Shown here piece after piece: positions 10,014 to 37,010 of a stretch of 64,000 nucleotides of DNA. A program made the position numbers and the translations under genes. Source of the DNA: Bryoerythrophyllum caledonicum (Eukaryota > Streptophyta > Bryopsida > Pottiales > Pottiaceae); assembly GCA_963971425.1 (NCBI GenBank), contig OZ020523.1:12148867-12212866 (forward strand), read 5' to 3'. How positions within the stretch are numbered: the first letter of the stretch is position 1; each line of letters begins with the position of its first letter. Under the pieces are notes generated by a model, which made no database searches, was not told the DNA's origin, and saw only the letters and a list, made by a program, of their open reading frames with translations.

Positions 10014-10043
10014 GCCACAAAATCTACAAAATATATACAAAAC

Positions 10044-13000
10044 ATGTTTCAAGACTACAAACTTATTTTCAACAACACACATGCATTAACCAGATGCATC
10101 CAACAACGAAGACCATACACACCAAGCCGAGGTGGACTACTCACATTAATACACAAAAAACATGCCTTCCCAGGCAACATCCAAAAAATCTCTACCCCAA
10201 TGCACATATCCCCATACCTCCAAATAATTAGAATCACTAATCAACCACTACAATCATGGTTAATCCTCCACATGTATATGCCATCGAACCCTGAGGATAC
10301 TAGATTCATCATCGACATACAAAACACTATCACATCTCAAATTAACAATAACCCTAACCACACTTACTTGTTATGCGGAGACTTTAATAGAGACATAGCA
10401 CTAATTGGTCGACAAAATGGAAACCATATCACCCCCCCTCAAACTGCTGATTACCAATGGCGGCAATTCACAGAAAACTTAAACTTCACTTACATAAAAA
10501 CTGACACACAATACTCTAGACAAGGTGGTTATAACTATGGTGACTGGAGCCTAATAGACGGCTTCTACATAAATACAAACAATAATGCACAATATACCTC
10601 TACAACAAACAAGGACGTCATTCTCAACTCAGACCACTTGCCCATACAACTACACATTCCAAATAACATACTAATCAGTCGCACCCCCATAATCACAAAT
10701 AATGACACCATACGTATACTCAACCCCATCCCAAAAGAGAATTTAGAAAAATTCAATACCCAACTCTTTGAAGGAAACTCCATACAAATTGACTCCCTCA
10801 TAAACACCCTCGAAAATAATAACCACCTAACACAAATACAATGGCAAGACACATGCCACACTCTAGACATACTTATTAATAAAATCTCTGATACGCTTGA
10901 ACAAACTTGTAAAGCCCAACCTATACCTCAAATGACAAACCGAACATCTCAACAAGGCGGATATCTTCCCAGAAAACTTTCTAAAACATGGAAACAACAC
11001 ATAACTACATACCATGTAATACGGAAAACTATTAGAACAGTTAGAAATAACCCTCAATGGCGCAACCACCCCATATGTAATGAACTGCTAAACTTACAAA
11101 ACGACCAAATTCCTGCCCCACCTCTCCCGGATCTACCTCATGATTCATGGATAAAAGACATAGCGCTAATCGCAAAGAATACCAACATTCAAGCTCAAAA
11201 AATTACCACAAAATATGCCAAAGACAACATCAAAAAAGCCATCTCAAAATACAGACAACTATATGAAACTAGTCCTAAAAAAATAAACAGAAGAGTGTTT
11301 AAAAATCTTGAATCTCCACCGCTAGATTGTATCACAGACCAACATAATAACATCTTAGCTAGCCCAGAAGACATTGCCAATGAAATATTCACTCAACAAA
11401 CAAAAAATAATAGACCCACAATACCAACATGCCACTACCAACCACATCATTTAACCAAATGTACATGTGCAGTACGCCAATATCCATGGCACGACCTAGA
11501 TGGATTTACCCTAGACACAAGGGGCGAACCAGAAACCCCACTACATACATACTTCAACAGAGCCACATACGACACATGTCTTCGTAACCTAGGCACCAAT
11601 AAAGCTCCAGGCCCTGACCGTATACCGAACTCAATTCTAAAAAATATGCCCCCAAAATTCCATAGACTACTATTCCTCTTTTTCTCCCAATGTTATAAAC
11701 AAAAACAAATACCATCTTCATGGAAAACAAGTGTAACAATTCTACTATACAAAAAAGGAGACCCATCAATTCTACCAAATCATAGACCAATCGCATTAGC
11801 TAACACAATATATAAACTCTTCACTAGTACACTTACCTCTATACTATCCTCATACGGGGAAAAATTCAAAATTCTACATGACAGTCAAGAAGGATTTAGA
11901 GCAGAAAGAAGCACCTCTAGACAAATACAAACCATAATAGCCGCATTAGAAGACGCAAGATTCACAAATCAAGACATATATATTCTATATATTGACTTAA
12001 AAAATGCCTTCGGCTCTATAGATCACGCTCGACTATTAGCAATAATGAACGACCTTGGGTACCCAAAAGACGCAACCACACTAGTTGGAAATATTTACTC
12101 TCAATCGTCTACCCACTATATTGGTGAACACTTTGGAAAGACAAAATCTATTCCCATTCAACGAGGAACAATACAAGGAGATACCCTTAGCCCATACCTA
12201 TTCATTATATTTTTAGAACCTCTACTTAGATGGCTAGAACGGGGTAACAACGGATACACCTTTGGTACATCAAAAACCACCATAAACTTTGCCGCATACG
12301 CAGATGATCTTGCCGTCATAACTAACAAAATTAAATCTATCCAAATACAACTTAACAAAATCCATAGATATTGCAAATGGACCGGAATGGACGTAGGTGT
12401 CCCAAAATGTGTCGCTACGGGATGCCCAAACAAATCCAAATTAAACCCTACCACTTTTAAAGCCCTAATGCAAGCTTCTAATATCAATTACCGCAATCAA
12501 CCGATCCCCATATTACACCAAAATGAACCATACAAATACTTAGGTACAAACCTTGTTCCATCACTAAAATGGAAAATCCAAATCCACGCCACAATGACGA
12601 AACTCATAAAACAATGCAATGAACTAACAACATGCCCGGCCACCATGAAACAAAAAATAAAAATGATTGATACCGTACTACGTCTAGGTGTGGCATACAG
12701 TTTCTACGGAGTACCATACTCTATGCCAGCTATCAAAAAACTTGATAAAAAAATAATAGCCATACAAAAAACCATATGTGGATTACCAAAATGTATGTCA
12801 AACGCAATAATCCAACTACCACATAACCTATTTGGACTTGAAGCTTTCTCCCTCAAAAACGCATACCTCCGATGCATAGGAGAACAACTGCAAAATGCTT
12901 TAAACGATAAAGGAAGACTTGGGAAAATATATAATGGATTAACTCACTATGTCCTTGCCCAATATGGTGGCGCCGAAAACATACCGAGAATTAAAAAAAG

Positions 13001-13247
13001 TGACTGCATAAGATCACCAATAACACGAACATTCTTCTTATTAAAACATATAGCTAAAGCCCACCTCAAAAGTACACTCCCAAACTTCCTCATTAATCCT
13101 ACAACACTAGAAATACTATGGCGCCAAGAAACACTAAATCATATCACACTCAATGCCCAACTCTCCCAAAAACTTCTGCAAAAACTCCTCTCAAAAAATA
13201 TTTTTGAACAGACCAAATTACTTTACCTAACGGCACACACATCATGA
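10044..13247 (+). CDS. LINE 1 ORF2: APE endonuclease (partial) and reverse transcriptase
   Basis: A frame of 1067 codons. Residues 1-210 are the C-terminal two thirds of an APE-like endonuclease: LLCGDFNRD (about residue 110; GAC at 10380), LIDGFY, and NSDHLPI with the catalytic SDH. Missing are the N-terminal WNA and QETK motifs, present in LINE 2 at 33362-33568. Residues about 510-800 are the reverse transcriptase: NKAPGPDRIPN, the palm motif YIDLKNAF, GTIQGDTLSPYLF, and YADD (12297-12308). The protein would nick DNA and prime reverse transcription from the nick. It stops at 13247 because one base is missing near 13215 relative to LINE 2, where the frame runs on. The listed start is simply the first ATG after the truncation. 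Confidence 0.95.
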   Translation: MFQDYKLIFNNTHALTRCIQQRRPYTPSRGGLLTLIHKKHAFPGNIQKISTPMHISPYLQIIRITNQPLQSWLILHMYMPSNPEDTRFIIDIQNTITSQINNNPNHTYLLCGDFNRDIALIGRQNGNHITPPQTADYQWRQFTENLNFTYIKTDTQYSRQGGYNYGDWSLIDGFYINTNNNAQYTSTTNKDVILNSDHLPIQLHIPNNILISRTPIITNNDTIRILNPIPKENLEKFNTQLFEGNSIQIDSLINTLENNNHLTQIQWQDTCHTLDILINKISDTLEQTCKAQPIPQMTNRTSQQGGYLPRKLSKTWKQHITTYHVIRKTIRTVRNNPQWRNHPICNELLNLQNDQIPAPPLPDLPHDSWIKDIALIAKNTNIQAQKITTKYAKDNIKKAISKYRQLYETSPKKINRRVFKNLESPPLDCITDQHNNILASPEDIANEIFTQQTKNNRPTIPTCHYQPHHLTKCTCAVRQYPWHDLDGFTLDTRGEPETPLHTYFNRATYDTCLRNLGTNKAPGPDRIPNSILKNMPPKFHRLLFLFFSQCYKQKQIPSSWKTSVTILLYKKGDPSILPNHRPIALANTIYKLFTSTLTSILSSYGEKFKILHDSQEGFRAERSTSRQIQTIIAALEDARFTNQDIYILYIDLKNAFGSIDHARLLAIMNDLGYPKDATTLVGNIYSQSSTHYIGEHFGKTKSIPIQRGTIQGDTLSPYLFIIFLEPLLRWLERGNNGYTFGTSKTTINFAAYADDLAVITNKIKSIQIQLNKIHRYCKWTGMDVGVPKCVATGCPNKSKLNPTTFKALMQASNINYRNQPIPILHQNEPYKYLGTNLVPSLKWKIQIHATMTKLIKQCNELTTCPATMKQKIKMIDTVLRLGVAYSFYGVPYSMPAIKKLDKKIIAIQKTICGLPKCMSNAIIQLPHNLFGLEAFSLKNAYLRCIGEQLQNALNDKGRLGKIYNGLTHYVLAQYGGAENIPRIKKSDCIRSPITRTFFLLKHIAKAHLKSTLPNFLINPTTLEILWRQETLNHITLNAQLSQKLLQKLLSKNIFEQTKLLYLTAHTS

Positions 13248-13711
13248 ACAATGAGGATTTCAAAACCTACCACTTCACCCCATCCAAACTAATAAAAAGT
13301 GCACTAAATATTGCTAAACAAATATTTTGCCACCCAACATGCCCCACCACATGTCATACTTATTGCAACATACACCCATACTCTCATATACTTAAAGATC
13401 CATTCATCACCATCAACAATAACACCATCCCAAGAAATATCCCCACACCAATCAATCCCCCTAACCCTCCACATACATACCATCCCCGTCCCCCTACATA
13501 CATCCCCAAAAACCCTACCACATATCCCATTAATAACATCATACGCCATAAACACATCCAACACACAGACACAAATAACATACAAACTACCTACACAAAA
13601 TATTTATGCCAATGGCAATACAATGATAATACATACAATAAATGGCTCCCCCAAAGAGACCTTTTTCCACGACACGACACTAATACCTCCACACATAACA
13701 CCGAAAATTAA
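13244..13711 (+). CDS. LINE 1 ORF2 continuation: Cys/Pro-rich and chromodomain-like segment
   Basis: This 155-codon frame overlaps the previous stop (ATGA) but is really the downstream part of the same polyprotein, displaced by a one-base deletion. It has a Cys cluster (CHPTCPTTCHTYC), a Pro-rich stretch, then YTKYLCQWQYNDNTYNKWLP. The pattern Y-L-x-x-W...T-x-x-x-W resembles the core of a chromodomain, which in some retroelements targets chromatin. That reading is tentative. The equivalent in LINE 2 is 29517-30128. Confidence 0.6.
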   Translation: MNNEDFKTYHFTPSKLIKSALNIAKQIFCHPTCPTTCHTYCNIHPYSHILKDPFITINNNTIPRNIPTPINPPNPPHTYHPRPPTYIPKNPTTYPINNIIRHKHIQHTDTNNIQTTYTKYLCQWQYNDNTYNKWLPQRDLFPRHDTNTSTHNTEN

Positions 13712-13818
13712 TACAATACTACCAAGAAATCCAAAAGAAAATATACTCTGATATCATCCTTGCCCACCATCCACAAGAACAACTTTCAGACACAAGATCT
13801 ATATCACCACCCATAATT

Positions 13819-14700
13819 ATGCCACTATTAAACATCTACACAATAGAATGTAACCCCGAAAACGACATCCTTACATCTTCAAATACAATTCAAATAGATA
13901 ACAATCAAGCACATCTATTCGAAGATAACGGCCGACATTTACACACCATTCCTGTTACCCGACTCCAATGGCTATGGAATCAATATAATACAAAATTACA
14001 AACTCCTACAAACATCGAACCAACAACCCAACCCTTTGAAACCGAACTAATATGGCTATATCAAAGATATAAGTACCGAATACCAAAAACAGACCCCCTC
14101 AAAAATGCACAATACACAATACCCAACCCCATTTTAGACTCACTAATCTCATCCTTTAACATCGAGCACTCATACTTTTCCTCCCCGATCACATGCCCTA
14201 CCAAACTAAATAAATTCTACTCACCGTACGAAAGAGACAAAATATTTGGATCCCTAGGCAAGGCCTTTGAACACAAATGGATCGGAAATGGCATAGCTCA
14301 CCCCCACAACAAGAAAGACATGGAACAAGCCATACATTGGGCTAGACTTGCCGCCAAACACGATCCAAATAACACAAAAACAATCATCGTCACACCGAAC
14401 AACAATTGGTACCAAAACAACAACCAACATTCAAACCCATTCCCAGACTCCCACATCATTGCAGTATTCGAAGCAGACACAATACCATACGTAGAACCTA
14501 ATATTCCACCCGAGCTTAAAAAACCCCGAACTGAGCCATCTACATTACAAATACTATGCGTCCATCATCAAAAATCAAACCCTTGGCTCCCTAGAACAAC
14601 TTGCGGAACTTACCTCCATAACAGACAATCTAGACATATAACGACCATACACAAAACCGGCCCAACCAACACCCTTACAAACCCCCGTAATCAAAAGTAA
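13819..14700 (+). CDS. LINE 1 ORF2 continuation: methyltransferase-like segment
   Basis: A 293-codon frame. Residues about 130-230 read LGKAFEHKWIGNGIAHPHN, a helix DMEQAIHWARLAAKHD, a strand TKTIIVTPN, then SHIIAVFEADTIPYVEP. The order (strand, xNPxx-like AHPHN loop, helix, strand, strand) resembles the catalytic half of amino-methyltransferase folds such as PCIF1-like proteins, with AHPHN at the place of their NPPF. The SAM-binding half is not evident and the motif is not exact, so activity is doubtful. The segment is conserved in LINE 2 (about 28836-29126, GIAHPHNLKEMEQTIHWARL). The last 55 residues are out of frame relative to LINE 2, which keeps the alternative frame. Confidence 0.6.
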   Translation: MPLLNIYTIECNPENDILTSSNTIQIDNNQAHLFEDNGRHLHTIPVTRLQWLWNQYNTKLQTPTNIEPTTQPFETELIWLYQRYKYRIPKTDPLKNAQYTIPNPILDSLISSFNIEHSYFSSPITCPTKLNKFYSPYERDKIFGSLGKAFEHKWIGNGIAHPHNKKDMEQAIHWARLAAKHDPNNTKTIIVTPNNNWYQNNNQHSNPFPDSHIIAVFEADTIPYVEPNIPPELKKPRTEPSTLQILCVHHQKSNPWLPRTTCGTYLHNRQSRHITTIHKTGPTNTLTNPRNQK

Positions 14701-14718
14701 AAACTGGTCAAAATTAAA

Positions 14719-16275
14719 CTATATCAACAACACATTAAACTACTCATTACACCTCCCCCTCTCCCAGACTACCCAACTCATACCACACCAAAATTTAACC
14801 CCGCACACAGTTATTACACCGACGGCTCCTTTAAACCACCAGAACAAATTAGCCCGGGCTCTTGGCGCAGAGAAAAAGCTGGCTATGGCATATATAATTC
14901 TACCAAAGAAATTAAACTAGCCAAAAGACTCCATGGACTACAAAATATCCTCAGAGCAGAACTTATGGCCATTCACAAAACACTACAAATCATCACAACA
15001 AAATACAACAACGAACCCGCACATATATTCACTGATTGTATAAATGCACTTTACCTACTAAATACTCAAATAACACATCCTACCCTTCACAATAGTCACC
15101 CCGACCAAACCATATTAACATCAATGGTCCAAATGTTACAAAACCGTACACAAATTACAACCCTTCACAAAGTGAGAGCCCATGCCAACATTGATGGCAA
15201 CAAACAAGCAGACAAACTTGCAAAAAAAGGCCGAGAAAAAACACACAAAAATGCCAAAGACCCACACGAACATGTCCATGCCACCCCATACTACTTTCAA
15301 AAAGAAGATTCGCCTTCCAAAGAAGATACCCCCGACAAAGGCCCAATTAGATTCTTGGGTAAATATCTCAAAAAACAAGACCTCTACAACAACCTTGACA
15401 CAATCTCAGAAAATATTCTTAATATAGAAAAATGGACTAACAATAATGACATAGACAAGGAACTCTCTACAAACTTTTGGAAAAATCCCATCATCTCAGA
15501 CTCACAAATAACATGCCTCATCAAATTCCGTACTGGTCAGTATATGGAAAACGCTCGCAAACAACTCTTCTTTGGAATAGAAAGATTCCCATCCATAACA
15601 TGCCCCATATGCCCCTCAACGGACCCCGACACATGGCTTCATGTTCTACTCAAATGCCAAAACCACCACATACACTCTCTAATTGTTAAAAGGCATAATA
15701 AAGCGGTATGGGAAGTCCGAAAACTAATCACCTCCTACAATAAATCGAGATGTTTTATACTAATGAACGCCGGCACTTTTAATAACAACCCACAAGAAAA
15801 TACGGTCCCCTCTTGGCTACTCCCATGCTCATGTGGGACCCAAAGATGTCATTGCAATGCTAGGCTCAAACCGGACATCCTTTGTGTTAAAGGTTTACCA
15901 TACAATGACCCGCCACCCGACCACATTAACCTAAACTACACCATTCAATTCATTGAATTCACATATTGCAATGATAGATTTTCCCCGGAAACAATCCAAA
16001 ACAAAATTGACAAATATCAACCCCTCATTGACGACATCATTACCATTGGATGGAAGGTGGACCCCCTTATTGTTATCACATCCGGCGCTCGTGCCACTAC
16101 CTTTATCCCATCTATGAGAACGCTTGAAGATACCTTCAAAATACCCATTGAAACAACCAAAAACACCTTTAAAAACATTAACACCATCGCTATTCAATAT
16201 GCCATGTCCATTTTGCTACATAAACGTAAAATTGAAAACAACCAAGCCCACCCCGATATACAAGACCCCCCTTAA
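14719..16275 (+). CDS. LINE 1 ORF2 C-terminus: RNase H, CCHC and RLE endonuclease
   Basis: Open from after TAA at 14716 to TAA at 16275. RNase H residues: YTDGSF (Asp at 14821), RAELMAI (Glu at 14959), FTDCINALY (Asp at 15034) and a last Asp in NKQADKLAK, the usual D-E-D-D set; it degrades RNA in the RNA-DNA hybrid. At 15601-15662 CPICPSTDPDTWLHVLLKC gives a C-x2-C...H...C zinc motif. Then LKPDILCV (15868), IQFIEFTYCND and NKIDKYQPL match the (R/K)PD...(D/E)...K-x-x-KY layout of R2-type restriction-like endonucleases. The sequence ends LLHKRKIENN and a Pro-rich tail. Having both APE and RLE is known from Dualen elements. Confidence 0.88.
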   Translation, partial: LYQQHIKLLITPPPLPDYPTHTTPKFNPAHSYYTDGSFKPPEQISPGSWRREKAGYGIYNSTKEIKLAKRLHGLQNILRAELMAIHKTLQIITTKYNNEPAHIFTDCINALYLLNTQITHPTLHNSHPDQTILTSMVQMLQNRTQITTLHKVRAHANIDGNKQADKLAKKGREKTHKNAKDPHEHVHATPYYFQKEDSPSKEDTPDKGPIRFLGKYLKKQDLYNNLDTISENILNIEKWTNNNDIDKELSTNFWKNPIISDSQITCLIKFRTGQYMENARKQLFFGIERFPSITCPICPSTDPDTWLHVLLKCQNHHIHSLIVKRHNKAVWEVRKLITSYNKSRCFILMNAGTFNNNPQENTVPSWLLPCSCGTQRCHCNARLKPDILCVKGLPYNDPPPDHINLNYTIQFIEFTYCNDRFSPETIQNKIDKYQPLIDDIITIGWKVDPLIVITSGARATTFIPSMRTLEDTFKIPIETTKNTFKNINTIAIQYAMSILLHKRKIENNQAHPDIQDPP

Positions 16276-16521
16276 TTGCTTCTCCGCCCAGACTTATCCT
16301 GACTTGTTGGTTGTGTGGTTTTGGCGACTTGCTTAGTTAGTTGTTACGTTGATTGTTTGTGAGTTTGGTTTGTATTCGGTCACCTGTTACATAGTGTCTA
16401 CCCTCGAGAGGGGGAAGTAGTTCCAGTTTACTAATTCCTTGTCCGGTGGGCATGGTCTTAGTAGTGGAATGAACAGACACTTTATTCACGCCGGCTCCTT
16501 TGGAGACCGGCGTTCTTCTTC
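16276..16521 (+). promoter_or_regulatory. LINE 3' UTR with conserved stem-loops and TTC tail
   Basis: Three foldable segments: CTACCCTCGAGAGGGGGAAG with its closing GTAG; the CCTTGTCCGGTGGGCATGG region; and the terminal hairpin 16488-16513 (ACGCCGGCTCC, loop, GGAGACCGGCGT). It ends TTCTTCTTC. The same order is found in copies 2, C, D, E and F. It is the probable recognition site for the element's reverse transcriptase. Confidence 0.85.
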
Positions 16522-16532
16522 TGTGTTAGTCT
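16522..16532. repeat. Target site duplication, right copy (LINE 1)
   Basis: TGTGTTAGTCT, an exact copy of 10003-10013. Confidence 0.93.
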
Positions 16533-16920
16533 TAATGTGTGGATTTTGGTTTGTATTTTTGCATCTTTTTTCGTATGTGGTGGAATATACTTGTGTGTGT
16601 ATGGTAGGTAGTATTTTTTTTTGTATATGTATATATATTTATATGTATTTTTTGAGGGTTTGTATTTGTATATGTTTTGGTGTTTGTGTTAGTATATGTG
16701 TTTGAGTATGTATATATATATATTCTCTTTTGTATAGGATAGTGTATTTGTATTGGGTATAAGGTTTAGTACAATATTTATATGCTCCATACAGTGTATT
16801 AGTATAGTATCCGTAATTTATACTAGGCTTTGATGTACGGATACGGTATATTGTATAGTCCATGGTAGTTTCCTTGTAGTCTTTGAAGTTTACAAGTTTT
16901 GGCGGCTTGTCTCCAATCAT
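16533..16920 (-). mobile_element. LINE A, ORF1 end and linker
   Basis: Minus strand. It continues LINE A from 10002. A frame from 16920 to 16639 reads MIGDKPPKLVNFKDYKETT and then a Tyr/Ile/Thr-rich linker without a stop. LINE B and LINE 2 lack one A in this stretch and hit TAG. The element's 5' truncation, or its insertion point in LINE B, lies near 16920-16950. Confidence 0.8.
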
Positions 16921-17637
16921 AGGTTTTGTGTGTGTGTTTGTTACGTGTAAGGGTATTGGTTTCTATGTCTCTTTCAAGCTTTAGTATTTTACAATATGGT
17001 GGTTTGTTATTATGTTTTAACGGTTGTATATATTTTTTAGTTTGTCTAATATACTTTTTTATTTTGTTTTTGATTATATCCTTGTATTGGAAAATGTGTA
17101 TGTTTTGTTTTCTTTCTTTTTGAGTGGATTTTCCTTGAATTGATTTTCTTTGGCTTATTGTTTTGTTTTAGTTTTTTGTTAGTTGGTTTGGTGTTTGTTT
17201 GTGTATTATTATTTGTGTTAGCCTTGATGTGTGTATGTTGGATTATATTTTTGCAACTATTTTTGTATGTGGTGGGTGTTGTATTTGTATATGTGTGTGT
17301 ATATGTATTGTATATAGTATTTGTATTTGTATATGTATATGTATTTGTATGTATGTTTTGAGGATTTGTATTTGTATGTATTTTGGTATTTGTATATGAT
17401 TTTGAGTATGTATATATGTATTTCCCTTTGTATAAAATGATGTATTTGTATTGAATATGGAGTCTAATACAATATTTATACAACCCATGTATCGGTGTAT
17501 GTTTGTATCCTACTACATATATTGTATTGGTATAGTATTCGTATTCTATACTAGATTTTAATGTATGTATTCGGTATTTTGTATGGTCAATGGTAGTTAC
17601 CTTGTAGTCTTTGAAGTCTACAAGTTTGGCGGCTTGT

Positions 17638-19182
17638 CTTCAATCATAGGTGTTGCCATGCTTCCCGTGATGGCTTGCATTGAGGCAAGTGCGGCGCTCA
17701 TTGCTTGTTGAATGCTCAACATTTGAGTCTTCAATTCTTCATGTTTTTGATCGGCATACTCTCATGTCTCCTTCCTCATTTTCTTGTTGCTCTCTTCCAT
17801 CACCAACTCGACGATCTCCAAGACATCTTGTTTGGTGACATTGGATGAGGTTTCTTGTATCTTGAAGGTCTCCACCGTGTTGACCATAGCGGCGTTAACG
17901 TCATCAAACCCGAATGCCTTCACTTGTGCTTCGGAAGGGGGTTCTGTTCCTTCTAGACTCCTTCGGTGTGGTGCAAACTCTACAAGGTAGCCTCCCATGG
18001 CAAAGGTTTTGTTTACAAATTGCTTGTAAACAATTGGGTTAGCACAATGTACATTAGCACTTCCGTTGTGTCTAGTTCCACATTCTTTGTGGAACCAAAT
18101 GGATCGAGTGTTAGCATCACCAATAATCTTGCGAATGGCATCACTTGTGTCATACACACTCATGAGGATAGGTAAGGGGGAGAGAGTTAGAGTAAAGGCA
18201 TCCTTCTTTGCCTTAGTTTCATGCGAAACCTTCCCTCCGGTGATGTGTTTAGTTTGTATTACCTCGTGGTGTGTGGTGACTTGATGTAGTTGGATCTTGT
18301 TTGCTTGTTGTGGTGTCGTGGTCATAATGAATGCATGGGTATCGTTGATGTTCTTTTGGACTCCGGTAATCTCAAACTCGTGTCCCCTTCGAAAACTATT
18401 CAAGAGAGCATCCATGAAGAGAGTTGTGGCCGAAATACCCTTCAAATTGTCACTCTTCACTTTAACAGAGAGGTTAGAATGTCTAGCAATATTTTGATAA
18501 CTTTTACAAACTTTTCCAATGATGTTGTGACCATCTAGTTTAAGGATGAAGAGTCTAAGCCCCTTAAGCAACATGATACCATCAATTTCGGGTTTTAGTA
18601 AGTATAGTTTGATTATCCCCGCCCATACCCCCTTCTTTCCCCCATTTTGACACTCAAGCATTGAATTGAAATAGGATCAATGAGATCATTTCCAAGTTTT
18701 ATATCCATTACTTCTAGTCTTTTTGTGATCATTATCTTGATTTCATCATGCATGATTTGGGAGGAAGGGGGTTCAAAGTGGATAGCGATGTGAAAGTCGA
18801 GAGCCAAACCTGTGGAGGTGTTGATGGTGATGTCGAAGGGGAGTTGGGTGATGTTGTAGTGTTGTCCCTCCACTCCGATTCTTGTGCTTGGATAAAGAAG
18901 TTGTGGGATGCGAGGAAATGCGACCTTTGCCCCGCTTGCCTCTTCCGCTTCTTCAGCCTTCAACCCTCTTGTTATCATGTCTTCGGCGGTTTCTCCACTA
19001 TAAAGCTCTTGAAGTCCTTCAATTGCTAGAGCCTCCATGTTAGCATACCCCATCCAAAATTTGAAATTGGTACTTACCGGTTGATTGATGTGCAGTTGAT
19101 TTTCTTCAATCATGGCATTCTTCATCTTCTTGCTTGTGCTATGGGTTTCTTCGGTTTGCCATGGTATCTTCTCAACCACCAT
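17638..19182 (-). pseudogene. LINE B ORF1 (RRM-like, coiled coil), one frameshift
   Basis: Two overlapping minus-strand frames, 19182-18613 and 18661-17762, form one protein of about 510 residues; one base is missing near 18650 compared with LINE 2. ATG at 19182 is chosen because a TGA lies just upstream. The N-terminal part has MEALAIEGLQELYSGETAED. The middle has KVCKSYQNIARHSNL. The C-terminal half has FTLTLSP, a helix, TRSIWFHKECG, GSANVHCANP and GGYLVEFAPHRRSL, an alternation like an RRM fold. The end (SNKKMRKET and EELKTQM) looks like a coiled coil. In LINEs, ORF1 proteins bind the element RNA. The exact family is not recognised. The frame meets TAG after KPPNL at about 17626. Confidence 0.72.
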
Positions 19183-19377
19183 TGTCTCTCATCCACCTTT
19201 TCCTTGAAGTTGAGGAGTCTTTTGATGCTACCCATGTCGATATTAATATAGCGGTGGCCTCTAATGGAGCTGCGGAGGTTGCTGTCAAAAAAGAGGGGGT
19301 CACGAACTATACTAGGAAGGTCATTTTTAAGAAGGTGGGGGTTGTTGATGGGATTGAGAAGGTTTGTGGCTGTGTAG

Positions 19378-26815: not shown

Positions 26816-27187
26816 CAGGCCTTTTTTTTTGGCGACTTGGAGCCAAATAGCGAATTTTTATTTATAGAAATAGAATATTCCTGAAAACTGGGAAATCTTA
26901 AGATTTTACATTGCCAAAACTTCATTGATGGCCGTTCCCAATGAAGTCCGTTTGCATATCGCCATATTGCTACTAATGAACAATGGGGACTCCAACTTGT
27001 CGCCAAAGAGGATGTACAAATCTATGTTTATAGAGATGAATTCTCCAAAATGGATATTTACGGAGAAAATTTGGTTTTGTATGGTTTCTAGAGAAACTTT
27101 GTGTCACCAAACTTGCGGTCGTCAAAAAGTTTGTGTCGCCACTGTGGCCAAATCTGGCTAAAACTCTGAAACCAAAAAAAAGGCCTG
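26816..27187. mobile_element. hAT-type MITE, 372 bp, inside LINE 2
   Basis: The ends CAGGCCTTTTTTTT and AAAAAAAAGGCCTG are inverted repeats. GTGTTAAT flanks both sides (26808-26815 and 27188-27195), an 8-bp duplication typical of hAT elements. It interrupts the last codons of the LINE 2 RLE segment, and a minus-strand frame from the LINE runs into it, making a chimeric C-terminus. Confidence 0.93.
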
Positions 27188-27195
27188 GTGTTAAT

Positions 27196-27894
27196 GTTTT
27201 TAAAGGTGGTTTTAATTGTTTCGATGGGAATTTTGAAGGTTTCTTCTAGAGTTTTCATAGATGGAATAAGCGTGGTGGCACGAGCGCCAAATGTGATTAC
27301 TATAAGGGGATCCAAATTCCATCCAAGGGCTATGATGTTGTTTATGAGGGATTGGTATTTATCTATTTTGTTTCGGATTGTTTCCGGGGAAAATCTATCG
27401 TTGCAATATGTGAATTCAATGAATTGAATGGTGTAGTCTTGGTTTATGTGTTCATGTGGTGGATCATTATATGGTAAACCTCTTACACAAAGTATGTCCG
27501 GTTTGAGCCTAGCGTTACAATGACAACTTTCAGTCTCACATGAACATGGAAGTAGCCAAGGGGGGACCGTATTTTCTTGTGGGTTGTTGTTGAAGGTGCC
27601 GGCATTCATTAGGATAAAACATCTCGATTTGTTGTAGGAGGTGATTAGTTTTCGAATTTCCCATACCGCTTTATTATGTCTTTTAACAATTAAGGAGTGT
27701 ATGTGGTGGTTTTGGCATATGAGTAGGACATGAAGCCATGTGTCGCGGTCCGTTGAGGGGCATATGGGGCATGTTATGGATGGGAATCTTTCTAATCCAA
27801 AGAAAAGTTGTTTACGAGCGTTTCCCATATATTGGCCGGTACGGAATTTGATGAGGCATGTTATTTCTGAGTCGGTCATGATGGATTTTTCCAA
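27196..27894 (-). pseudogene. LINE 2 CCHC and RLE segment
   Basis: The minus-strand frame reads TGQYMGNARKQLFFGLERFP, CPICPSTDRDTWLH, then LKPDILCVRGL, IQFIEFTYCNDRF and KIDKYQSL, the same RLE layout as LINE 1. After NINT it runs into the hAT-type MITE and ends with foreign residues. The upstream RNase H frame is offset by one base near 27880. Confidence 0.85.
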
Positions 27895-28640
27895 AAATTT
27901 GTAGAGAGTTCATTGTCTATGTTATTGTTGTTAGTCCATTTTTCAATGCTACGGATATTTTCTGTTATTGTGTCAAGATTGTTGTAGAGGTCTTGTTTTT
28001 GGAGATATTTGTCCAGAAATCTAATTGGTCCTTTATCGGGGGTATCTTCTTTAGAAGGCCAATCTTCTCTTTGGAAGTAGTATGGAGTAGCATAGGCATG
28101 TTCGTGTATATCTTTGGCCTTTTTGTGTGTTTTTTCTCGGCCTTCTTTTGCTAATTTATCTGCTTGTTCATTACCATCAATATTGGCATGGGCTCTAACT
28201 TTGTGGAGGGTTGTAGTGTGCGTTCGGTTTTGTAACATTTAGATCATTGACATTAGTATGGTTTGGTCAAGGTGGCTATTGTGAAGGGTAGGGTGTATTA
28301 TTTGAGTGTTTAGTAGGTAAAGTGCATTTATGCAATCGGTGAATATATGAGCGGGTTCATTATTGTATTTTGTTGTAATGATTTGTAAGTTTTGTGGATG
28401 GCCATAAGTTCTGCTCTAAGAATATTTTGTAATCCATGGAGTCTCTTGGCTAATTTCATTTCTTTGGTAGAATTGTATATGCCTTACCCAACTTTTTCTC
28501 TGCGCCAATTTCGTGGGCTAATTTGTTCTAGTGGTTTAAAAGATCCATCGGTATAATAACTATGTGCGGGGTTAAATTTCGGTGTAGTATGAGTTGAATA
28601 GTTTGGAAGGGGGGGCGGTGTAAAAAGGTAGTTTGATGTA
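27876..28640 (-). pseudogene. LINE 2 RNase H
   Basis: Reading down from 28640: SYYTDGSFKPLEQ, a frameshifted centre with a stop near 28480, and from 28238 the piece RAHANIDGNEQADKLAKEG with the last catalytic Asp. All four acidic positions can be located but no single frame joins them. Confidence 0.8.
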
Positions 28641-28699
28641 TTGTTGATGTAGTTTAGTTTTGACCATTTTTTACTTCAGTTAACGGGGTTTTGTATAGG

Positions 28700-29450
28700 T
28701 GTAGGTGGGACCAGTCTTGTGTATAATCGGTGTATGTTTAAGTTGTGTGTTATGGAGGTGAGTTCGGCAAGTTGTTCTATGGTGCCAAGGGTTTGATTTA
28801 GATGGTGGACACATATTATTTGTAATGTAGATGGTTTAATTCGGGGTTTTTTTTAACTCGGGTGGAATAGTAGGTTCTTTGTATGGTATTGAATCTGCTT
28901 TAAATAATGCAAGAGTATGAGAATCTGGAAATGGGTTTAAGTCTTGGTTACTGTTTTGGTACCAGTTGTGGTCTGGTGCGATGATGATTGTATTTGTGTT
29001 GTTTGGGTCATGTTTGGCGGCAAGTCGAGCCCAGTGTATTGTTTGTTCCATTTCCTTTAAATTGTGGGGGTGGGCTATACCATTATCGATCCATTTATAG
29101 TCAAAGGCTTTTCCCAATGATCTCAATATTTTGTCTCTTTCAAAAGGTGAGTAGAATTTTTTTAGTTTGGTAGAGCATGTGATCAGAGAAGAAAAATATG
29201 ATTGTTCAATGTTAAAGGATGATATTAATGAGTCTAAAATGGGTGTGGGTATCGTGTATGGCGCATTTTTAGAGGGTCATTTTTTGGGATTTGCTATTTA
29301 TATCTTTGGTATAGCCAAATTAGTTCGGTTTCAAAGGGTTGGGTCGATGGTTCTATGTTTGTAGGGGTTTGTAGTTTTGTATTGTATTGATTCCATAACC
29401 ATTGGAGTCGAGTGGTGGGAATAGTGTGCAAATGTCGGCCATTTTCTTCG
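28700..29450 (-). pseudogene. LINE 2 methyltransferase-like segment
   Basis: The frame 29126-28836 reads SLGKAFDYKWIDNGIAHPHN, EQTIHWARLAAKHDPN, TIIIAPDHNW and TLALFKADSIPY, closely matching LINE 1. Upstream codons to about 29450 and downstream codons to about 28700 match LINE 1 in shifted frames. Conservation of AHPHN in two copies supports a real domain in the parent element. Confidence 0.65.
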
Positions 29451-29516
29451 TATAGATGTGCTTGGCTGTTATCTAATTTAATTGTGTTTGAGAATGTAAG
29501 GATATCATTTTCGGGA

Positions 29517-30128
29517 TTACATTCTGTTGTATAAATGTTTAAGAGTGGAATAACTATAGGTGGTGTTACGGATCTTGGGTCTGAGAATTGTTCTTGAGGG
29601 TAGTGGGCTAGGATGATTTCCGAGTAAATTTTGTTTTGAATTTTTTTGGTAGTATTGTTTTAATTTTTCGATGTTATGTGTGGAGGTATTGGTGTCGTGT
29701 TGTGGAAAAAGGTCTCTTTGGGGAAGCCATTTATTGTATGTATTATTATTGTGTTGCCATTGGCATAAATATTTTGTGTAGGTATTTTGTATATTATTTG
29801 TGTCTGTGTGTTGGATATGTTTGTGGTGTATGATGTTGTTAATGGGATATGTGGTAGGGTTTTTGGGGATGTATGTTGGGGGAAGGGGATGGTGTGGGTG
29901 TGGAGGGTTAAGGGGATTGCTTGGTGGAGGGATATTTCTTGGGGTAATGCTATTGTCGATGGTGATGAATGAATCTTTAAGTATATAGGAGTATGAGTGT
30001 ATGTTACAAAAGGTATGACATGTAATAGGGCATGTGGGGTGGCAAAATAGTTGTTTAGCAACATTTAGAGCATTTTTGAATAATTTGGATGGGGTGAAGT
30101 GGTAGTTTTTGAAGTCCACATTGTTCAT
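29517..30128 (-). pseudogene. LINE 2 Cys/Pro-rich and chromodomain-like segment
   Basis: 203 codons: CHPTCPITCHTFC, a Pro/His-rich stretch, then YTKYLCQWQHNNNTYNKWLP. In LINE 2 the frame upstream of ATG (30128) is open with the end of the RT region (FELKQITLPNGTHIMNNVDF), showing this is a continuous polyprotein and not a separate ORF. Confidence 0.65.
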
Positions 30129-30539
30129 GATGTGTGTGCCGTTAGGTAAAGTAATTTGTTTTAGTTCAAAAACATTTTTTGATAGGAGTTTTTGTAGAAG
30201 CTTTTGAGAGAGTTGGGCATTGAGTGTGTTGTGATTTAGTGTTTCTTGGCGCCATATTATTTCTAGTGATGTAGGATCAATGAGGAAATTTGGGAACGTA
30301 CTTTTAAGGTGGACTTTAGCTATGTGTTTTAATAAGAAGAATGTTTGTGTGATTGGTGATCTTGTACAATTACTTTTCTTGATTCTGGGTATGTTTTCGG
30401 CACCACCGTATTGGGCAAGGACATAATGAGTTAATCCATTATATATTTTCCCAAGTCTACCTTTGTCATTTAGGGCATTTTGTAATTGTTCACCTATACA
30501 TCGGAGATATGCGTTTTTGAGGGAGAAGGCTTCAAGCCC

Positions 30540-31930
30540 AAATAGATTATGTGGATGTTGGGATTATCGCATTTGACATACATTTTGGTAGTCCACATAT
30601 AGTTTTTTGTATGGCTATTATCTTTTGGTCAAGTTTTTTGATAGCTGGCATAGAGTATGGTACACTGTAGAAGCTGTATGCTACGCCTGGGCGTATTACG
30701 GTATCAACCATTTTTATTTTCTGTTTCATGGTGGCCGGACATGTTGTTAGTTCTTTGCATTGTTTGATGAGTTTTGTGGTTGTAGTGTGAATTTGGATTT
30801 TCCATTTTAGTGAGGGGACAAGATTTGTACCTAGGTATATGTATGGTTCATTTTGATGTAGTATAGGGATTGGTTGATTGCGGTAATTGATGTTAGAAGC
30901 TTGCATTAGGGCTTTGAAAGTGGTAGGGTTTAATTGGATTTGTTGGGGCATCCAGTAGCGGCACATTTTGGGACACCTACGTCCATACCAGTCCATTTGC
31001 AATATCTATTAATTTTATTGAGTTGTATTTGAATAGATTTAATTTCGCTAGTCATGATGGCGAGGTCATCAGCGTATGCTGCAGAGTTTATGGTGGTTTG
31101 TGATGTGCCAAAAGTGTATCCATTATTTCCTCGTTCAAGCCATCTAAGTAGTGGTTCTAAGAATATAATAATTAGGTATGGGCTAAGGGTATCTCCTTGT
31201 ATAGTTTCTCTTTGAATGGGTATAGGTTTTGTTTTTCCGAAGTGTTCTCCAATATAGTAAGTGGATGATTGGGAGTAGATGTTTCCAACAAGTGTAGTTG
31301 CATCTTTTGGGAAGCCAAGATCCATCATTATTGCTAATAGTCTAGCATGGTCTGTCGAGCAAAAGGCATTTTTGAAGTCAACGTATAATATGTGTATATC
31401 TTGATTTGTAAACCGTGCGTCTTCTAGTGCGGCTATTATAGTTTGTATCTTTCGAGCGGTACTTCTTTCTGCTCTAAAGCCTTCTTGGCTATCATATAGG
31501 ATTTTGAAATTTTCACCGTATGAGGATAGGATGTAGGTGAGTGTACAGGTGAAGAGTTTATATGTTGTGTTGGCTAATGGAATTGGTCTATGGTTGGGTA
31601 GTATAGACGGGTTGCCTTTTTTGTATAGTGAAATTGTTGCGTTTGATTTCTATGAAGTCGATATTTGTTTTTTTTTGTAGCAGTGAGAAAAGAAAAAGAA
31701 TAAGAGTTTGTGAAATCTTGGAGGCATGTTTTTGAGTATTGAATTTGGTATGCGATCTGGGCCTGGGGCTTTGTTGTTGCCCAGGTTTTGAAGACATGTG
31801 TCATATGTGGCTCTGTTGAAGTACGTATGTAGTGGATTTTCTAGTTCGCCTTGTTTGTCTAAGGTAAATCCATCAAGGTCATGCCATGGGTATTGGCGTA
31901 CAACACATGCACATTCAATTGGATGTTGTG
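30540..31930 (-). pseudogene. LINE 2 reverse transcriptase
   Basis: Pieces in different frames: NNKAPGPDRIPNSIL (about 31770), the palm-A region near 31380, GDTLSPYL (about 31190), AAYADDLAIMT (about 31070), then YLGTNLVPSLKWKIQ and the thumb-like PATMKQKIKMVDTV. Frameshifts lie near 31650, 31340 and 30960. The catalytic YADD remains. Confidence 0.88.
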
Positions 31931-33568
31931 GTTGGTAATTACATGTTGGTACTGTGAATCTGTTGTTTTTTGTTTGTTGGTTGAATATTTCATTCGCAAT
32001 GTCTTCGGGGCTAGTTAAAATATTATTATATTGATCTGTGATACAATCTAGTGGTAGGGATTCTAGGTTCTTAAAGACTTTTCTGTTAATTTTCTTAGGG
32101 CTTATTTCATACAATTGTCTATATTTTGAGATGGCTTTCTTAATGTTATCTTTGGTGTATTTTGAGGTTATTTTTCTAACTTGTATGTTGGCATTTTTTG
32201 CAATTAGTGCGATATCTTTTACCCATGTATCATGGGGTATATCCGGGGGCAGTGGGGTGGGAATTTGGGTATGTTGTAGAGTTAGTAGTTCATTGCATAT
32301 GGGGTGGTTACGCCATTGAGAATTATTTTTTACAAGTCTTATAGTTTTTCGTATAACATGGTATGTAGTAAGATGTTGTTTCCAAGTTTTAGAGAGTTTG
32401 CGGGGTAGATAACCTCCTTGTTGAGATGTTCTGTTTGTCATTTGGGGTATTGAGTAGGCTCTACAAGTTTGTTCTAGTGTGTCGGAGATTTTTTTGATGA
32501 GTATATCTAGGGTTTGACATGCTTCTTGCCATTGTACTTGTGATAGTTGATTCTTATTTTCAAGAGTATTTATGAGGGAGTCTATTTGCATGGATTTTTC
32601 TTCAAGGAATTTTGTGTTGAATTTTTCTAAGTTGTCTTTTGGGATGGGGTTGAGTATGCGTATAGTGTCATTGTTTAGGATTGTAGGAGTTCTATTAATT
32701 AATGTGTTATTTGGCATGTGCAAATGTATAGGTGAGTGGTCCGAGTTGAGAATAACATCCTTGTTAGTTGTAGAGGTGTATTGCGTATTGTTGTTGGTAT
32801 TTATATAAAATCCGTCTATTAGACTCCAATCGCTATAGTTATAGCCACCTTGTCTAGAGAATTGTGTATCGGTTTTTATGTAAGTGAAGTTTAAGTTTTC
32901 TGTGAAGTGGCGCCATTGGTGGTCTATGGTTTGAGGAGGGGTGTTATGATTTCCATTTTGGCGTCCAATTAATGCTATGTCTCTATTGAAGTCTCCACAT
33001 AGCATATATGTGTGATTGGGGTTATTATTTATTTGAGATGTGATAGTGTTTTGTAAGTCATTGATAAATCTAGTATCTTTGGGGTGAGATGGCATATACA
33101 TGTGAAGAACTAACCATGGTTGTAGTGGAGAATTAGTAATTTTGATTATTTGAAGGTAAGGAGATATGTGCATCGGGGTGGGGATTTTTTGATGTTGCCC
33201 GGGAAAGCATATTTTGTATGTATTAATGTGAGGAGGCCACCGCGGCCCGGTGTGTATGGTCTCCGTTGTTGAATACATCTTGTAAGTGCATGCGTATTGT
33301 TGAAAATGAGTTTATAGTCTTGGAATATATTTTGTATATATTTTGTGGATTTTGTGGCGGATCATTTTGTTTCTTGTATAACTATAATGGCTGGCGGTGT
33401 GTTTGTATGTGTGACCAAAGTTTGTAAGCTAGGAAGGGTAGTGTTTAGAGAGGAGGCATTCCATGTGATTATATATGTATTTTCTTTATTTGAGCTATTG
33501 TCTTGGTTTTGTGGGAGAAGGTAAGGGGGGGGGGTGGGTGGATATATTCTGGTATTTGGTCGAGACAT
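31930..33568 (-). pseudogene. LINE 2 APE-type endonuclease
   Basis: The frame 33568-33362 begins MSRPNTRIYPP and has YIITWNASSLN and IIVIQETK, the N-terminal Asn and Glu motifs of the fold. After a shift, 33278-31930 has LCGDFNRD, LIDGFY and NSDHSPI. Together all main APE motifs are present, so the parent element had a full APE nuclease in addition to the C-terminal RLE. Confidence 0.9.
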
Positions 33569-33584
33569 TTTAGTGATTCATTAA

Positions 33585-34400
33585 TTAGATTGTTGGGAAG
33601 GTATGGAATTTTTTTTTAATAATATCTTGTGATGGTGGTATACAATGATTGTGTATAAAATCATATAGTTCTTTATGTATTGATGTATTATGTTTTATAA
33701 TATTTTGGTTATTTTCAATGAATGATAAATAAGGGTGTGGAGTGTTAATGTGTCTTTCGGGAGGGTTTTGTAGGTTAGCAAGGGTGTTTAATAGCGTATT
33801 AGTCCATTGAGTTATGTTCGGGCTTTGTGGGTTTAATAAGAGGTTACATTTGTCTAAGGTTGGGTGGATTGTAGTTACTATGGTGTATAGGATATGTGAT
33901 GAGGGGTGTTCATTTTGTTGTTGTTGTATATATTGGATAATGTGTGGATGTGTGTTGGTGTATAATTGGTGTAGTATATGCGTGGGTTTTAGTATAGGTG
34001 CAAATGCTTGGGCAATATGTTTGTATTCCGGTTGTAATTTTATTGTATTTGGTATAAAGTACATTTTGGCATTCTTTTTGTGATGTGTTGGGTGTCTTTT
34101 CATTATTTTTGGCATAGGTCCTAGGTTTGTTTCTATGTCTCCTCCTAGTATTAGTAGTAGTTTAAAATGTGGTGGTTTTTTATTATGTTTAAAGGTTATA
34201 TGTTTTTTTGTTTGTCCAATATTCTTTTTTGTTTTGTTTTTTATTTTATCTTTGTATTGAGAAGTGTGTATGTTGTGTTTTCCTTCTTTTGGGTGAGTTT
34301 CTCTAGAAATGATTTTCTTTGGTTTATTTTGTTTAGGTTTATTGTTATGTATGTTGTTTTTGTTAATTGATTTTGTGTTTGTTTGTGTGTCTTGGTTTGT
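33585..34400 (-). pseudogene. LINE 2 linker end, decayed 2A and ORF2 N-terminus
   Basis: The linker reads KHNKKPPHFKLLLILGG, then DIETNLGP (34116-34139). The Pro of NPGP is Leu here (CTA at 34122-34124), which in the 2A family abolishes skipping. The ORF2 N-terminal region 34115-33585 is otherwise open for 176 codons and ends HTFPTI just before the endonuclease start. Confidence 0.8.
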
Positions 34401-34798
34401 ATTAGTCTTTATGTGTAGATATTGATTTGTATTTTTGCATCTTTTTACGTATGTAGTGGATGTTGTGTTTATGTGTATATGTGTATTGTAGGTAGCATTT
34501 TTATTTGTGTATGTATATGTATTTACTATTTGTATGTATGTTTTTTATATTTGTATGTATTTTGGTAGTTGTATTAATATATGTATTTGGATATGTGTAT
34601 ATGTATTCCTCTTTGTATAGAATGATGTATTTGTATTGAGTGTGAAGTCTAATACATTATTTATACGCCATATATATGGGTGTATGATTGTACACTACTA
34701 CATATAATGTACGAGTATAGTATCCATAGTCCATACTAGGCTTTTTGTATGTATTCCATATAGTGTATGGTCAATGATAGTTACGTGTAGTCTTTGAA

Positions 34799-36400
34799 GT
34801 CTACAAGTTTGGCGGCTTGTCTTCAATCATGGGTGTAACCATACTTCCCGTGATGGCTTGCATTGAAGCAAGTGCGGCACTCATTGCATGTTGGATGCTC
34901 ACCATTTGAGTCTTCAATTCTTCATGTTTTTTATCGGCATACTCTCGTGTCTCCTTCCTCATTTTCTTGTTGCTCTCCTCCATAACCGACTCCACAATCT
35001 CTAACACATCTTGTTTGGTTACATTGGATGAGGGTTCTTATATCTTGAAGGTCTCCACCGTGTTGACCATGGCGGTGTTAACGTTATCAAACCCGAATGT
35101 CTTCACTTGTGCTTTGGAAGGGGGTTTCGTTCCTTCTAGACTCCTCCGGTGTGGTGCAAACTCTATAAGGTATCCTCCTATGGCAAAGGTTTTGTTTACA
35201 AATTGTTTGTAGACAATTGGGTTAGCACAATGTACATTAGCACTTCCGTTGTGCCTAGTTCCACATTCTTTGTGGAACCAAATAGATCTAGTGTTAGCAT
35301 CACCAATGATCTTGCGAATGACATCACTTGTATCACAAACACTCATAAGGATAATAAAAGGGGAGAGAGTTAGAGTAAAGGCATCTTTCTTTGCCTCTTC
35401 TCTTGTGATACCTTCCCTCCGGTGATGTATTTAGTTTGTATTACCTCATGTTGTGTGGTGACTTGATGTAGTTGGATCTTCTTCGCTTGTTGAAGTGTGG
35501 TGGTCATGATGAACGCATGAGTGTCGTCAATGCTCTTCTGGACTCCGGTGTTATCAAACTCTTGCCCCCTTCGAAAACTATTCAAGAGGACATCCTTAAA
35601 AAGAGTGTTGGCCGAGATACCCTTCAAGTTGCCACTCTTCACCTTGATAGAGAGGTTAGAATGCCTAGCAATGTTTTGGTAACTCTTACAAACTTTTCCA
35701 ATGATGTTGTGACCATCTAGCTTAAGGATGAAGGATCTAAGCCCTTTGAGCATCATGATACTATCAATTTTGGGTTTTAGCAAGTGTAGTTTGATTATCC
35801 CCGCCCATACACCCTTCTTTCCCGCGTTTTTTGTACTCAAACATTGGATTGAAATAGGGTTTATGAGATCATTGCCAAGTTTTATACCCATTACTTATAG
35901 TCCTTTTGTAAACATTTTCTTGATTTCATCATGCATGATTTGGGAGGAAGGGGGTTCAAAGTGAATTGTAATGTGATAATCAAGAGCTAAACCTGTGGAG
36001 GTGTTGATGGTGATATCAAAGGGGAGTTGGTTGATGTTGTAGTGTTGTCCCTCCACGCCATTTCTTATGCTTGGATATAGTAGTTGCGGGATGTGAGGAA
36101 ATGCTATCTTGGCCACGCTTGCCTCCTCGGCCTCTTCCACCTTTAATCCTCTTGTTATCATGTCTTCGGTGGTTTCTCCATTGTAAAGCTCTTGAAGTCA
36201 TTCTTCAATTGCAAGAGCCTCCATGGTAGGATATCCCAATAAAAACTTGAAATTCACGCTTACCAGTTGAGTGATGTGCGGCGGGTTTTCTTCTATCATG
36301 ATATTCTTCATCTTCTTGCTTGTGGTAGGGTTTCTTCTGTTTGCCTTGGTATCTTCTCAATCACCATTGTGTCCTCGTCCATCTTCTCATTGAAATTGAG
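34799..36400 (-). pseudogene. LINE 2 ORF1
   Basis: From MDEDTMVIEKIPRQTEE (near 36395) to KPPNL and TAG (34799-34801). It has the same layout as LINE B ORF1: GISANTLF, SVCDTSDVIRKIIGDANT, CANPIVYKQF, LIEFAPHRRSLEG, then the C-terminal coiled coil (EESNKKMRKETREYADKK). At least three one-base indels relative to LINE B (near 36310, 35400 and 35045) and one stop break it. Confidence 0.75.
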
Positions 36401-36469
36401 GAGTCTTTTGATGTTGCCTCGGTATACTTCTACTTTTGAAGAGGTTAGTAACTATTTTGGTTAGTATAC

Positions 36470-37010
36470 TTGTAGTGGAGGGGTGTAGGGGGTCGCTATT
36501 TGAATTAGGGGGGTCACTGTTTAGTAGTGGGAGGTCGCTGCTTGGAATTGGGGGGGTTGCTATGGAGGTTAGAAGGTCGCTACTGGAGTGTGGGTTAATT
36601 GGACGTAGGTTGCAGGGGGGGAAGGTTGTTGGACGTGGGTTGCTATAGGGTAGGTCGTGGAGGAGGAAGGTTGCTACCCGTAGGTAGCAGTTGGGAAGAG
36701 AGGTCGTTGGGCGTGGCAAGCGAGAAGGGAGGCTGTTGGCTGTAGGTCGCAAGTCCCCAGTCCTTCCAGAAGAACTCACAGTTCAAATTCTTGTAGGGAG
36801 GCTCTTAGTTCGGGTACTCACAGGGAGGAACACATTTCAGGCGCGCACAGGGTGACTCACAGTTCGCGCTCGCACATGGACTCACGATTTGCGCGCGTAG
36901 GGAGGTTTTTAGTGTGCTTGCTCGTAGAGAGGCTCTTGGCTTGGGCATGTTCAGGCAGGCTTTGTGTTTGGGTGCTCGCAGGGAGGCTCTCACTTCAGAT
37001 TGAAGATTCT
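36470..37010 (-). repeat. LINE 2 leader: short degenerate repeats
   Basis: Two arrays. At 36480-36680 there are GGTCGCT-type units like those in LINE B. At 36790-36990 there are units around GGGAGGCTCT and GACTCACAGTTCG, spaced about 30-40 bp. On the sense strand a Pro/Ser-rich frame stays open to 36779. Repeated leaders of this sort often act as internal promoters in LINEs; this is inference. Confidence 0.6.

Follow-up and report, generated by a model that had tools for sequence, protein, structure and literature searches.

Dualen/RandI is the group of long interspersed nuclear elements (LINEs) defined by the presence of an apurinic/apyrimidinic endonuclease (APE) and a restriction-like endonuclease (RLE) in one element (PMC4640811; PMC3636483). 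The RT (reverse transcriptase) of this group branches between those of the RLE and APE groups. LINE/Dualen was found in all cryptophytes examined but one (PMC12747079), and Dualen/RandI has also been reported from green algae and relatives of Chlamydomonas. Here we describe a LINE family of a land plant, which occurs as decayed and nested copies in a 64,000-nt stretch of DNA (the window; all positions are in whole-window numbering). An earlier note on this DNA held that only the group described from Chlamydomonas combines the two nucleases, which is too narrow in view of the cryptophyte elements.

Like Dualen/RandI, the plant family has APE and RLE in one element together with RNase H (PMC4640811; PMC3636483), and like RandI it ends in 3′ repeats that are not poly(A) (RandI table in PMC3747384). 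Unlike Dualen/RandI, it lives in a land plant and carries CAPAM-like, chromo-like and 2A parts; these do not appear in the excerpts of Dualen descriptions found, and algal Dualen may carry some of them. Judged by domain content, the architecture is Dualen/RandI-like, and the family may belong to that group. The combination of dual nuclease, CAPAM-like domain, chromo-like domain and 2A was not found described among the open-licence papers listed by the searches. We consider it quite probable that the elements form an abundant, recently amplifying land-plant family of non-LTR (non-long-terminal-repeat) retrotransposons with a dual-endonuclease, Dualen-like architecture, and that the second open reading frame (ORF2) encodes one polyprotein. 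The family offers an opportunity to ask how one element benefits from two DNA-cutting domains. Its near-identical copies and unbroken frames are numerous, and they bring the question of which nuclease makes which nick within reach of testing in a land plant.

Like the R2-group LINEs (R2Bm and R2Tg), the family has a CCHC knuckle followed by a region with RHN, KPD, D/E, KxxKY and GAR, and its reverse transcriptase (RT) matches R2 with up to 108 bits. Unlike R2, which is not known to carry APE or RNase H and whose insertion target is ribosomal DNA, it has both domains, and its insertion flanks look unrelated. Plant L1 LINEs are not known to have an RLE or a CAPAM-like domain, whereas the present family carries both. 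The family shares APE, RT, RNase H and the host kingdom with plant L1 LINEs (RNase H in plant L1: PMC4640811). The L1 families of flowering plants mostly end in (A)n (224/233; table of PMC3747384).

The two nucleases of ORF2

The genome searched is a 437-Mb assembly of 894 contigs that includes the window; loci taken from elsewhere in it are given L-numbers. First-look candidate counts are not confirmed copy numbers, 150 candidates were scored per query, and frames were tallied by hand. A query of 195 C-terminal residues from copy A in the window (Table 1) gave 8,182 first-look candidates; all 150 scored places match, and 29 of them lie in unbroken frames of 2,808-3,686 codons. All 150 places scored for PCIF1_WW (2,614 first-look candidates) exceed the cut-off, and a 3,087-codon frame is present in 33. 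With the 2A region (3,673 first-look candidates), 17 of the matches listed are 100% identical, and 14 of these 17 have a 2,809-codon frame. The family is abundant and recently amplifying. No unbroken ORF2 was found in the window, where the longest piece has 1,067 codons.

Two unbroken copies were read through, L071 (2,809 codons) and L070 with L069 (3,087 codons). According to both, ORF2 comprises, in order, a low-complexity leader, a 2A/StopGo motif, APE, RT, a chromo-like domain, a CAPAM/PCIF1-like domain, RNase H, CCHC and RLE. ORF1 is also there, and its protein has no Pfam matches above E 0.01. Because each unbroken frame encodes both nucleases, they belong to one protein in the two copies read. 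Thus the expectation that one ORF encodes an APE-type nuclease, an RLE-type nuclease (by motif order) and RNase H was borne out. The window is truly nested, copy A lying in copy B with an 11-bp target-site duplication (TSD), and this would suit the view that the two nucleases come from different nested elements and are combined only in appearance. However, the unbroken frames of 2,809 and 3,087 codons, lengths shared by many copies, hold all domains in order. Chance or a nesting artefact is therefore excluded, and this view is refuted, with only a vanishing probability left to it.

The ratios of nonsynonymous to synonymous change (dN/dS) were obtained from a small sample of three copies in two pairs, L071/L069 and L071/L080, of which L080 is the more diverged. 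In this order, the ratios are 0.078 and 0.056 for the endonuclease (EN) region, 0.064 and 0.080 for RT, 0.139 and 0.140 for CAPAM, and 0.102 and 0.065 for RNase H. The chromo core shows the lowest ratios of all regions (0.017 and 0.034). For CCHC+RLE the ratios are 0.086 and 0.052, the latter from just 94 codons, as the frame of L080 stops within this region. Since dS approaches or exceeds 1 in several regions of L080, with 2.6 in the chromo core, the L080 ratios are rough. The enzyme domains, including both nucleases, are under purifying selection (dN/dS 0.05-0.14). These low ratios indicate that both nucleases and the CAPAM-like domain were kept as the subfamilies diverged.

The APE domain was matched by Exo_endo_phos over the cut-off in three of three separate domain scans (8.2e-7, 2.0e-6 and 2.2e-6), and WNA, QE, GDFN and SDH, the motifs of APE-type LINE endonucleases, are all present. 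The N-terminus aligned with AP-endonuclease-type structures at E 0.077. The motifs that the earlier note had reported for its LINE 2, which is our copy D, were recovered on the minus strand (Table 1); they fall in two frames because copy D is frameshifted. Among solved proteins, the RT is nearest to three R2 chains (105.6-108.1 bits, compared with 79-81.8 bits for L1 chains). Two further chains, 8gh6 and 8ibw, which we take to be of R2Bm type, scored lower (49.2 and 45.1 bits). RNase H, which had also been proposed from the sequence alone, was detected by Pfam in the partial ORF of copy A (5.3e-6) and in an unbroken copy (PF00075, 8.3e-14).

The C-terminal domain of ORF2 is, with high probability, an RLE. 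R2-type RLEs have an alpha-beta PD-(D/E)xK fold, which the plant domain may share. The R2 chains used, which were retrieved with an R2-type string, and the plant domain share, in order, H-x-L-x-x-C, RHN, KPD, D/E and K-x-x-KY, and a GAR segment is common to the plant domain and two of the three R2 chains. Among the family pieces, KPD is present in 38/46 (KPN, KPH, MPN, KRD and others are the exceptions), an acidic residue at the E site in 45/46, K-x-x-KY in at least 45/47, and RH and GAR in 44/47 each. The pattern of CCHC, RHN, KPD, D/E and KxxKY in order is matched by 7 of 10 family rows. A close variant (first Cys dropped, KPD fixed) is matched by two of the three R2 chains and does not occur in 200,000 shuffles of the copy A sequence; the two patterns were composed after viewing the family and R2 sequences. 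In local alignment with 8gh6, copy A reaches z 5.8 with none of 500 shuffles as good, and L077 and L072 are equalled by 4 and 3 of 500 shuffles, respectively.

In the window, CCHC followed by KPD, E and KxxKY had been claimed for four copies. KPD was located at 15868 (+), 22026 (+) and 27504 (-), whereas the fourth copy (37434-38393, -) reads KPH and keeps the E and K-x-x-KY. The CCHC is present in three of the four C-terminal copies, the copy at 21872-22665 starting downstream of it.

Several results weigh against this assignment of domains. Copy A is not significantly similar to the other two R2 chains (215/500 and 60/500 shuffles as good), against which the shuffles as good numbered 322 and 194 of 500 for L077, and 16 and 47 of 500 for L072. 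Profile searches gave no significant Pfam or PDB match for the RLE region, and hhalign against the R2 RLE gave a probability of 1.2%, a score equalled by 5 of 200 column shuffles. As for the APE, no match was obtained in the whole-ORF2 Pfam scan, and copy A alone falls under the Exo_endo_phos_2 cut-off. The original Dualen description by Kojima and Fujiwara in 2005 reportedly included a cysteine protease; none was found among the Pfam matches to the plant ORF2 at E ≤ 1, although a diverged one could escape.

An alternative is that only the APE cuts, the C-terminal domain being a conserved non-cleaving DNA- or RNA-binding module, with or without the RLE fold. Many LINEs work with APE alone, the C-terminal likeness to R2 is statistically patchy, and the flanks of the insertions look unrelated, unlike those of most RLE elements. 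Nevertheless, the putative catalytic residues (KPD, the acidic residue and KxxKY) are largely kept with dN/dS 0.05-0.09, and such a pattern need not be retained in full by a domain that only binds. APE-only cutting seems doubtful to us.

CAPAM-like, chromo-like and 2A parts

Three parts go beyond the earlier note, namely the CAPAM/PCIF1-like and chromo-like domains between RT and RNase H, and a 2A motif at 9744 (-), with a decayed one at 34142 (-). The CAPAM/PCIF1-like domain scored 45.3 and 39.1 bits against PCIF1_WW (cut-off 31.1). Members of this Pfam family are in fact CAPAM-like methyltransferases (PMC7641849). Against PCIF1 in the PDB, the domain gave E 0.0073, and AHPHN aligned with the ANPPF site. 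NPPF is the catalytic motif of CAPAM/PCIF1. It was found in none of the 30 loci and two copies of the window that were examined; 30 of these 32 have AHPH at this position. The AHPH codons vary synonymously in the 18 rows of alignment A3, from which L045 and L046 are excluded. On the opposite side, AHPH is not universal, L046 reading APPH and L045 ADPH.

Because the canonical NPPF is lost while AHPH is kept, the domain is more probably a binder of capped RNA 5′ ends, or of another partner, than an adenosine methyltransferase. A methyltransferase still active with AHPH, which would modify the RNA or cDNA of the element in a role as in other retrotransposon methyltransferases, appears rather unlikely, because HPHN aligns with the NPPF position of PCIF1, and enzymes that have lost the catalytic Asn generally do not methylate adenine at N6. 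In its favour, the domain is conserved (dN/dS 0.14), and retrotransposons with cytosine or Dam-like methyltransferases exist (PMC5890265). The closest precedent found for the capture of a methyltransferase-type domain by a LINE is SymbioLINE-Dnmt (PMC5890265), in which the domain is likewise kept by selection. Unlike that dinoflagellate element, with its cytosine DNA methyltransferase in an ORF upstream of RT, the plant family has the CAPAM-type domain inside ORF2 and with an altered catalytic motif. A conserved CAPAM-like domain with an altered motif is an unexpected LINE accessory.

The chromo-like domain is tentative. It stays under the Pfam Chromo cut-off in every copy scanned (12.9-16.2 bits, cut-off 25.1), which likewise counts against the domain assignment. 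In the PDB it matched CDY1 at E 0.54.

The ORF2 leader is of low complexity, and its synonymous change is saturated between the two unbroken copies. It is followed by a 2A motif, a protein-splitting signal known chiefly from viruses. The 2A/StopGo core (D/G/C/N)(V/I)ExNPGP, as defined in PMC12846837, is kept in 17 of 20 hand-picked places, and the remaining three read NPRP. In the family the core reads GDIETNPGP. StopGo during translation would free the leader, and the enzyme part would begin at the last proline of NPGP. A 2A motif is also present in non-LTR retrotransposons of trypanosomes and sea urchin (PMC4981915), which differ from the plant family in host and in lacking its dual nuclease. 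A 2026 survey found 2A to be almost absent from plant viruses (PMC12846837); the motif described here would represent StopGo in natural use by a land plant. In L070 with L069, a second, degenerate 2A-like string (GGDINTRPN) was observed at ORF2 codons ~640-648, about 98 residues upstream of the canonical 2A.

3′ ends, insertion and copies in the window

The 3′ end consists of a hairpin and a (CTT)n tail. Among 30 C-terminal loci (L009-L038), 29 are readable with a CCGGCG-type arm and CTT repeats; the arm is diverged in L016, and in L034 the sequence preceding the arm is diverged too. The hairpin variants show paired changes in both arms, for example GGCTCC..GGAGACC and GGTTCCC..GGGAACC. The 29 flanks after the 3′ end look unrelated by eye. 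TSD-like repeats were found in four of five copies tested in the window, that is, A (11 bp), G (12 bp), F (10 bp) and H (10 bp), and none was found for copy C. The repeats of F and H are candidates only, because the matches lie 8 and 28 bases off the assumed 5′ ends.

The ORF2 protein would recognise its own RNA by the 3′ hairpin and the CTT repeats. Together with the observed 5′ truncation, the TSDs and TSD candidates of 10-12 bp are consistent with insertion by target-primed reverse transcription at many unrelated sites. The APE most likely makes the priming nick, the RLE with the CCHC would bind DNA and nick the second strand, and RNase H would remove the RNA. The roles may also be exchanged, with the RLE making the priming nick and the APE acting in second-strand or end processing. 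The RLE lies downstream of RT and CCHC as in R2, and the RT is closer to three R2 chains than to L1, though the two further R2 chains scored lower, as given above. On the other hand, target specificity was not seen in the 29 flanks, and the APE is conserved as strongly as the RLE. We regard priming by the RLE as improbable.

As a tentative proposal for the whole element, to which we give a low probability, APE and RLE would split the two nicks, the captured cap-adenosine methyltransferase would be a non-catalytic cap reader that selects full-length capped RNA of its own, the chromo-like domain would read the site, and StopGo would free the enzyme.

The copies in the window are listed in Table 1. 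Self-comparison indicated that a single LINE family fills several stretches of the window, copies A and D being 85.6% identical across 6.2 kb. Copy A is nested in the older minus-strand copy B with the 11-bp duplication TGTGTTAGTCT. An inversion by twin priming, in which 9172-10013 (-) would be the inverted 5′ part of copy A, was rejected. Nesting is concluded because TGTGTTAGTCT flanks 10014-16521 on both sides and the minus-strand copy is continuous. Coupled translation at the stop/start overlap ATGA at 13244 was also rejected; this overlap is an indel, because the frame runs straight on at this point in copy D and in both unbroken copies. Copy D holds an insert at about 26816-27185.

Two repeat structures were observed around copy B. 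Between ORF1 and ORF2, a local direct duplication of ~430 bp is located at 16522-17655. An imperfect palindrome of ~1.8 kb, 71% self-complementary, and related inverted repeats are located at 5387-7163 and 1733-2732. The palindrome region sits in 519-9171, a stretch that may interrupt copy B and for which no clear TSD was found.

Table 1. Copies and parts of the LINE family in the window
Feature	Position	Strand	Basis or remark
Copy A, 5′-truncated within APE	10014..16521	+	part of APE, RT, chromo-like, CAPAM-like, RNase H, CCHC, RLE, 3′ hairpin, TTC tail
Left TSD of copy A, TGTGTTAGTCT	10003..10013		11 bp; 5/300 shuffles reach 11 bp
Right TSD of copy A, TGTGTTAGTCT	16522..16532		pairs with left TSD
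Copy A ORF: C-terminal APE (GDFN 10377, SDH 10629) and RT (YADD 12297)	10044..13247	+	RVT_1 7.6e-31; motifs
Chromo-like domain of copy A, tentative	13535..13666	+	Pfam Chromo E 0.019, under curated cut-off
CAPAM/PCIF1-like domain of copy A, AHPH at NPPF position	13819..14571	+	PCIF1_WW 9.3e-12, over cut-off
RNase H domain of copy A	14809..15232	+	Pfam match in partial ORF; borders by eye
CCHC knuckle CPIC..H..C of copy A	15601..15657	+	motif
RLE-like nuclease domain of copy A, RHN - KPD (15868) - E - KxxKY - GARA	15673..16149	+	motif order
3′ terminal hairpin CGCCGGC..CCGGCG of copy A, then (TTC)n	16489..16512	+	sequence
Copy D, near full-length, decayed: ORF1, 2A, APE, RT, chromo-like, CAPAM-like, RNase H, CCHC, RLE	26450..36413	-	self-comparison
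APE of copy D, frameshifted: WNA 33463, QETK 33376, GDFN 32996, SDH 32744	32730..33472	-	motifs; borders by eye
2A motif of copy D, decayed, GDIETNLGP	34116..34142	-	motif at 34142
Copy B, stretch with start of ORF2 core, intact 2A GDIETNPGP at 9744	9172..10013	-	self-comparison, motif
Copy B, 5′ part: ORF1 (17762-18661, 18613-19182) and local duplication; split by copy A	16533..19227	-	self-comparison, ORFs
APE N-terminal fragment (WNA 398, QETK 311), possible continuation of copy B	1..518	-	self-comparison, motifs
Copy F, C-terminal fragment: CCHC, RLE (KPH), 3′ end; 10-bp TSD candidate	37209..38678	-	6/300 shuffles
Copy C, RLE fragment and 3′ end; TSD search negative	21872..22665	+	self-comparison
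Copy G, ~100-bp 3′ fragment between 12-bp TSDs TTGGAAGGCATT	44487..44590	+	0/300 shuffles
Copy H, 3′ fragment, 10-bp TSD candidate	50087..50249	-	1/300 shuffles

Host and other features

The best reading of the host is a land plant, as the earlier note had supposed. Plastid-type contigs contain rbcL at three places, with accD (named by eye) next to it in the two loci that have an open downstream frame. Fifteen dirigent matches, 14 of them over the cut-off, were obtained on large contigs; to our knowledge, dirigents are specific to land plants. Non-LINE ORFs close to the copies match Plant_tran (1.4e-66), NAM-associated and Glyoxal_oxid_N. A DELLA search of the genome gave no match and is uninformative, as the control also had no match anywhere. 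Two clearly different plastid-type rbcL sequences are present in the assembly (L081 compared with L082/L083; contigs C821, C590 and C894), which suggests a mixed sample, a hybrid or contamination.

Outside the genome, scans of viral contigs gave no relatives of the family; the queries were the C-terminal protein and its alignment, the CAPAM-like domain and an alignment of the RT. A scan of genome contigs gave two records, both with mollusc symbionts in their titles and with distant RTs of 27-28% identity; one of the two consists largely of N. The eight best RVT_1 matches of the plant genome (L001-L008) are Ty3/gypsy-type LTR elements by eye, and L005 also contains a 3′ part of the dual-nuclease LINE.

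Other features were observed in the window. A PIF/Harbinger-type transposase (Plant_tran, 1.4e-66) is located at 42994-43866 (+), and a NAM-associated ORF at 40948-41472 (+), ~1.5 kb upstream of the Plant_tran ORF; the two perhaps belong to one element. A glyoxal oxidase gene at 46871-48301 (+) is apparently in two pieces, Glyoxal_oxid_N at 46871-47767 and a second ORF at 47798-48301. Finally, an inverted repeat pair is located at 60089-60975 and 62139-62933, its pieces of ~0.5 and 0.3 kb being 88% and 82% identical, respectively.

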